Assembly: GCA_002731275.1 (NCBI GenBank) | Contig: PCBK01000031.1 | Location: 1 to 64,000 of the forward strand | From: Deltaproteobacteria bacterium | Lineage (GTDB): Bacteria; Myxococcota_C; UBA6777 | Reading direction: 5' to 3' | Length of the DNA stretch: 64,000 bases | Shown: one piece after another, positions 14,920 through 15,338 of the stretch | Numbering within the stretch: the stretch's first letter is position 1 | How the letters are laid out: every line of letters starts with the position of its first letter | The notes under the pieces: model-generated | What the model was told of the DNA's origin: nothing | The model's database searches: none | The model's input: the letters and a program-made list of their open reading frames with translations, nothing else | Translations under genes and position numbers: made by a program

Positions 14920-14993
14920 TTTACAAAATGGGACTTGAACCCACAACTTCCTGATTAAGAGTCAGATGCTCTATCCAACTGAGCTATTTGTAC
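14920..14993 (-). tRNA. tRNA-like RNA 1, anticodon CTT (Lys), G1/A72 mismatch
   Basis: GTACAAA TA GCTC AGTTGGATA GAGC A TCTGA CTCTTAA TCAGG AAGTT GTGGG TTCAAGT CCCAT TTTGTAA A. Confidence 0.85.
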
Positions 14994-15060
14994 ACTCCAG
15001 GGGTAAGGACACGGTCCCCCCATAAAAAGGGCGAGAGTCGCGTAAGTTCGCAAAGTGGTG

Positions 15061-15134
15061 TTTACAAAATAGGATTTGAACCTATAACCATTTTCATGAC
15101 AAGAAAATACCCTACCAGATTGGGCTATTTGTAC
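15061..15134 (-). tRNA. tRNA-like RNA 2, anticodon GTC (Asp), G1/A72 mismatch
   Basis: GTACAAA TA GCCC AATCTGGTA GGGT A TTTTC TTGTCAT GAAAA TGGTT ATAGG TTCAAAT CCTAT TTTGTAA A. Confidence 0.85.
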
Positions 15135-15265
15135 ACTCTGCATGTAAGGACGCGATCTCTCATCAAGCTGATCTATCCGCCTTTGCGGAAGAATACATCC
15201 ATCAAAAAAGATGGTCGTGTATGGCTGTAGAGAGGGTCGGAACCGTGCGAGTTCGCAAAGTGGTG

Positions 15266-15338
15266 ATTACAAAGTAGGACTTGAACCTACAGTATTCTCC
15301 ATCCAAAGGAAACGCCTTTCCAGTTAGGCTATTTGTAC
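15266..15338 (-). tRNA. tRNA-like RNA 3, anticodon TGG (Pro), G1/A72 mismatch
   Basis: GTACAAA TA GCCT AACTGGAA AGGC G TTTCC TTTGGAT GGAGA ATACT GTAGG TTCAAGT CCTAC TTTGTAA T. Confidence 0.82.

Follow-up and report, generated by a model that had tools for sequence, protein, structure and literature searches.

We analysed a 64,000 nt stretch of contig PCBK01000031.1 (assembly GCA_002731275.1), hereafter the window, and identified three tandem genes that are probably Y-RNA-type tRNA mimics belonging to a divergent Ro60 particle. This reading is directly supported by RNA architecture and covariation, by gene linkage across phyla, by the Ro60 and EF-Tu domain 3 folds of a neighbouring gene product and by a mismatch in aminoacylation identity. 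We infer that the three RNAs are expressed, bind the protein and have an effector and a physiological role. tRNA-mimicking Y RNAs near Ro60 are already known, and the window RNAs appear to represent an unusual, less-rearranged branch of these bacterial mimics.

ARAGORN called the three genes on the minus strand as tRNA-Lys(CTT) (14919-14993), tRNA-Asp(GTC) (15060-15134) and tRNA-Pro(TGG) (15265-15338), with Rfam tRNA scores of 62.1, 57.5 and 52.9 bits, respectively, bearing out the cloverleafs and anticodons proposed in a first-pass annotation of this DNA. As that annotation had also pointed out, all three have the acceptor strands GTACAAA...TTTGTAA, giving 6 pairs and a G1/A72 mismatch, as well as common flanks, whilst in the true tRNA-Gln at 4051-4122 every acceptor position is paired (TGGGGTA/TACCCCA). 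The T-loops read TTCAAGT or TTCAAAT, the D-loops contain GG and the D-loop/T-loop elbow is intact. The shared flanks pair with one another, and the real unit is therefore 117–118 nt long, compared with ~75 nt for the cloverleaf alone. In each unit an inner helix (TGCAGAGT/ACTTTGCG in units 1 and 2; CTGGAGT/ACTTCAG in unit 3) adjoins the pseudo-acceptor and is separated by an internal loop, CCTTAC/AACTY, from an outer helix (CCGTGC/GCACGG, TCGCGT/ACGCGA and CCGTGT/GCACGG). The mismatch that had been likened to initiator tRNA is a side issue, as the unpaired G1/A72 forms the junction of the acceptor-like helix with this Y-type stem. The tRNA module itself is in canonical order, free of the circular permutation seen in 6CU1, and retains a complete anticodon arm. 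The array region yielded no sigma-70-type promoter.

The same architecture recurs upstream of Ro-like genes in Cyanobacteria, Planctomycetota, Chloroflexota and Myxococcota. Upstream regions of homologous Ro-like genes were inspected at 80 loci, where a unit scanner comprising the outer helix, CC, a TACA motif, the inner helix and AACTY gave 188 sense-strand units, compared with 2 when the sequence was reversed. Units fell within 3.5 kb upstream of Ro-like genes in 172 cases versus 12 downstream, and at least one was present at 57 of the 72 loci with sufficient upstream sequence. Because the scanner demands pairing, the outer-helix test was repeated on units selected by sequence motif alone; the outer helix was fully paired in 66 of these 101 units, against a shuffled-partner mean of 27 and maximum of 37. 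In an alignment of 34 unpermuted units, 96.6 % of cells were paired and 23 of 25 pairs displayed two-sided changes, which no shuffle equalled, and sliding the partners lowered pairing to 34–54 %. The anticodon stem (helix 3) was 95 % paired, with two-sided changes in all five pairs. Helices 1 and 2 were partly selected for pairing by the scanner and helices 3 and 4 were selected via ARAGORN calls, which expect those stems, so it is the compensatory changes and not the bare pairing percentages that count as evidence. The RNAalifold consensus omitted the D and acceptor arms because MAFFT had shifted the Myxococcota rows by one base.

A whole-unit covariance model (CM; R1), which had the three window units among its training sequences, scored them at 99.6–102.9 bits, and nothing else in the 10.75 Mb window genome (G000) exceeded 32.8 bits, the score of an ordinary tRNA. 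Across eight other named whole genomes, 23 of 26 CM matches were at the Ro-like locus, and at metagenome loci outside the model training matches were found just before the gene (e.g. L190, L187, L186 and L184). Two relatives from the same family, G002 and G004, carry three units each (83–92 bits), whilst in a further relative, G003, two units (66 and 43 bits) immediately precede the two Ro-like genes. RNA and protein co-occurred in G000, G002, G003 and G004, and both were absent from G001, the fourth relative of this family. The third unit of G002 (C77:212-326; L213) and of G004 (C307:1442-1556; L212) lies away from the Ro60-like gene, bears the anticodon TCA and has a lengthened outer helix followed by a run of T, resembling an intrinsic terminator.

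The 172 upstream units carry different cargoes on this stem, namely 53 cloverleafs in normal order, 56 circularly permuted tRNAs and 63 others, often a short hairpin. The permuted order (T-arm, closed acceptor hairpin, U8-A9, D-arm) gave 88 forward matches versus 2, 1 and 1 in three controls, a count that includes a few adjacent ordinary tRNAs read together. A strict permuted-tRNA grammar requiring an anticodon arm yielded only 7 matches because most permuted units have no such arm. The crystallised bacterial Y RNA 6CU1 is a circular permutation of a tRNA (PMC11472068), and the permuted sister units share the topology of YrlA and 6CU1. In the unpermuted class, the acceptor-like helix hardly varies with the anticodon: cyanobacterial units pair TACATAC with GTATG or something very similar, and those of the window and its relatives combine GTACAAA and TTTGTAA. 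The shared acceptor reported by the first-pass annotation is thus part of the constant frame of an RNA family that spans several phyla. Anticodons in the unpermuted class drift (14 of 53 units), including ATT, AAG, AAA, AGT, CTA and 6-nt loops. This drift, together with the presence of several tRNA arrays elsewhere in the window genome, would fit a decayed tRNA array or functionless recombination debris, an explanation rendered scarcely credible by the strong covariation in all helices, by retention beside one gene family across phyla and by the T-rich 3' tails that follow 78 of 176 units versus 15 % at control positions.

The gene directly downstream of the array is predicted from its modelled fold to encode a divergent Ro60-like ring protein fused to EF-Tu domain 3. 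A HEAT-like N-terminus and a von Willebrand factor A (vWA) domain with a DKSxSM motif occupy residues ~10-520, followed by the C-terminal EF-Tu domain 3 at residues 542-632. Pfam detected the latter above cut-off (8e-7) and vWA_Ro60 below it (5.5e-5). The AlphaFold2 model (59 sequences; pLDDT 89) displays the HEAT ring and vWA fold of Ro60/TROVE proteins, and its 13 best PDB fold matches were all Ro60/Rsr/TROVE (prob 1.00, E 3.8e-12 to 8e-9), followed by EF-Tu. No classical TROVE protein matched above cut-off anywhere in the window genome. A search of genome contigs for homologues returned 0 with a single-sequence query and 220 with an alignment query. Twelve homologues carry the EF-Tu fusion, which among the homologues listed is confined to the window's clade, and homologues of ~500 aa without it occur in Planctomycetota, Chloroflexota, Cyanobacteria and others. 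EF-Tu domain 3 is the domain that grips the tRNA T-stem. Of the residues that we take to be T-stem contacts in Thermus EF-Tu, the window protein keeps Arg330, His331, Gln341, Thr350, Lys376 (as Arg), Glu390 and Gly391. A second vWA protein is encoded on contig C99 of the window genome.

Table. Coordinates of the predicted Y-type RNA units and the putative Ro60-like gene in the window
Feature	Position	Strand	Details	Basis
Y-type RNA unit 1	15243..15359	-	Pro-TGG-like cloverleaf 15266-15338	Fold; CM R1 100.9 bits
Unit 1 helices	outer 15354-15359/15243-15248; inner 15339-15346/15254-15261	-		Fold
Y-type RNA unit 2	15038..15155	-	Asp-GTC-like cloverleaf 15061-15134; outer helix 15150-15155/15038-15043	Fold; CM R1 102.9 bits
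Y-type RNA unit 3	14897..15014	-	Lys-CTT-like cloverleaf 14920-14993; outer helix 15009-15014/14897-14902	Fold; CM R1 99.6 bits
Predicted Ro60-like ring protein, 640 aa	12935..14857	-	Directly downstream of array; possible second start 14848	Pfam, AF2 and PDB fold matches

Good Rfam and ARAGORN scores could also suggest functional tRNA genes whose leader and trailer are unusual, in which case trimming would remove the stem and the tRNAs would decode Lys, Asp and Pro codons. A search of the genome for canonical counterparts, as proposed in the first-pass annotation, recovered Asp-GTC (two copies, with G73), Pro-TGG (G37, A73) and Lys-TTT, all with proper acceptors in the case of Asp and Pro; the only other Lys-CTT cloverleaf found was an array tRNA on contig C121, a point in favour of a decoding role. 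Lys-TTT can, however, read AAG, and no Lys-CTT tRNA was found by pattern in the relatives G002 and G004. AspRS requires G73 and ProRS requires G72/A73, whereas the window cloverleafs have A at position 72 and U or A at position 73, and the Pro-like loop has A37. One acceptor serves three isotypes, contrary to what is expected of elongator tRNAs with isotype identity elements and acceptors of their own, and the frame is common to several phyla irrespective of anticodon. The absence of an encoded CCA is uninformative, since only 2 of 163 tRNA calls in the window genome encode it. On sequence grounds the three window genes are not ordinary tRNA genes, and we regard a role in decoding as very improbable. 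The proposal of non-translational tRNA mimics that arose by cassette duplication is accordingly well supported, with a constant frame and exchanged D, anticodon and T arms. Both the stem around the cloverleafs and the neighbouring gene for the Ro60-like partner had been missed.

The window genome also contains a tandem array of 11 tRNA-like genes, ten with anticodon CAT, at C121:35683-36562 (L102 5683-6562). Mixed tRNA arrays with weak-scoring tRNAs are located at contig ends (C65:1-1308, C200:28337-29011, C98 and C8), and are perhaps parts of one broken mobile element.

The RNAs may act as decoys or baits. One version of this idea casts them as isoacceptor-like baits for, or sensors of, tRNA-cleaving enzymes, their anticodon arms being cut instead of those of real tRNAs and the Ro60-like particle reading or clearing the damage. 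Preservation of the anticodon arm by compensatory changes and the occurrence of several anticodons per locus would suit such a function, as would the adjacency of complete-set arrays of ordinary tRNAs to the Ro60-like gene at L126, L130 and L134, and Hughes 2020 suggested that YrlA might inhibit an anticodon nuclease (PMC7790460). YrlA was nevertheless uncleaved in the same study (PMC7790460), no anticodon arm is recognisable in most of the 56 permuted related units, and drift has led to anticodons absent from elongators (CTA, TCA) and to 6-nt loops. PADLOC returned nothing convincing for the window protein, its matches being limited to E1-like genes in relatives. We therefore consider the bait or sensor explanation unlikely.

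The closest known counterparts of the window RNAs are YrlA-type Y RNAs (Chen 2014; Wang 2018, PDB 6CU1; Salmonella and Deinococcus Rsr), as defined in PMC8394870. Like these, the window RNAs fall within 90–150 nt, have a large stem formed by their 5' and 3' ends and a tRNA-like module with D, T and acceptor arms, and are encoded beside a gene with a Ro60 fold, a linkage that holds across phyla. They differ in comprising three tandem versions of different tRNAs, in their CC..AAC/AACTY stem motif and in their partner, a divergent Ro60 carrying an EF-Tu domain in the window's clade. The protein resembles Ro60/Rsr (TROVE) across the HEAT-like ring and vWA, but displays just ~11–17 % identity to solved Ro60 structures. 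tmRNA likewise places a tRNA module on another RNA stem and shares the EF-Tu theme, but the acceptor end of the window RNAs is closed and continuous with the stem, 118 nt leaves no tag reading frame and there was no Rfam tmRNA match. Some sister units, being permuted tRNAs with a closed acceptor hairpin, resemble the circularly permuted tRNA genes known from algae and archaea, yet a conserved Ro-type stem surrounds them, and the window units are unpermuted.

Several observations weigh against a Y RNA assignment. The window units depart from YrlA in their unpermuted order and complete anticodon arm, and their internal-loop sequence differs from what we take to be the Ro-binding consensus of known Y RNAs, with no obvious fit. 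Rfam 15 contains no family for these RNAs; above the gathering score, tRNA alone matched and no Y RNA family did. The Pfam TROVE model (PF05731) matched neither the window protein nor its family. Alignment to EF-Tu shows that the homologues largely retain GGR[H] and EG but vary at Gln341 and Thr350. Lastly, the RNAs of G002 and G004 sit ~4 kb from the Ro-like gene. In the papers that we consulted we came across neither this stem motif nor full-cloverleaf members without permutation nor a Ro60–EF-Tu fusion, though Chen 2014 may already list part of the family.

In the Y-RNA-type reading, the long stem built from the two ends of each RNA, with its outer helix, CC..AAC/AACTY internal loop and inner helix, would be where the Ro60-like product of the next gene docks. 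This stem bears at its tip a complete, unpermuted cloverleaf with a constant pseudo-acceptor and, because this pseudo-acceptor is continuous with the stem, the RNA should escape release, CCA addition and charging as a normal tRNA. YrlA holds Rsr through its basal stem, whilst its tRNA-like part serves as an effector module, being a ligand of PNPase and a substrate of the tRNA-modifying enzymes DusA and TruB (PMC8394870). By the same logic, the tRNA shape of the window RNAs may be an effector-binding module that gates the Ro60 ring or tethers tRNA-binding enzymes to it, and the EF-Tu domain 3 that the ring carries in the window's clade is probably what grips this RNA by its T-arm.

Related loci displayed further features. 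Ordinary-looking tRNA arrays spanning almost every isotype are present directly upstream of the Y-type RNAs and Ro60-like gene at L130 (2611-5741; 22 tRNAs), L134 (5-4935; 25) and L126 (2234-4059; 18), the hosts being one Rhodothermales and two Phycisphaerae-type genomes. A conserved protein of ~66 aa without a Pfam family, ending in RPEAVYG or RPEAVFG, is encoded just upstream of the RNA array at 45 of 80 loci (e.g. L172 4208-4429, L174 1894-2094 and L099 8776-8976, minus strand); the pattern was not found in the window's relatives L103 and L104. In some genomes, genes for a ThiF/E1-like enzyme and a 270–310 aa protein of no known kind lie 3' of the Ro60-like gene (L172 9044-10504; L099 2817-4416, minus strand), and the combination of an E1-like enzyme with a small conserved protein hints at ubiquitin-like chemistry. 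A more elaborate proposal, which we consider a long shot, is that a Ro60-like ring with an EF-Tu T-stem grip uses isotype-specific tRNA replicas on Ro-binding stems, arranged as an array of exchangeable cassettes, to sense or buffer damage to specific tRNAs, with related loci contributing a nearly full reserve of real tRNAs as well as the small conserved protein with its E1-like enzyme.

Upstream of the RNA array in the window, a Ser/Thr kinase fused to a formylglycine-generating-enzyme-like domain is encoded at 15491-17917 on the minus strand. An ORF with kinase-like sequence also lies upstream of the units at L103 (20-1741). Elsewhere in the window, a single ORF of 1167 aa (6692-10195, plus strand) comprises approximately six consecutive DsbA-like thioredoxin domains.

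In sum, the family contains unpermuted and permuted cloverleafs on the same stem beside the same protein, and so links real tRNAs to YrlA-type Y RNAs. This mixture allows tests of how Y RNAs came to mimic tRNAs, whilst the fusion of a Ro60 ring to an EF-Tu domain offers support from the protein side for the tRNA shape as what the particle recognises. The family also accounts for a class of false tRNA annotations, since the good tRNA scores of its members swell tRNA counts, odd anticodons included.
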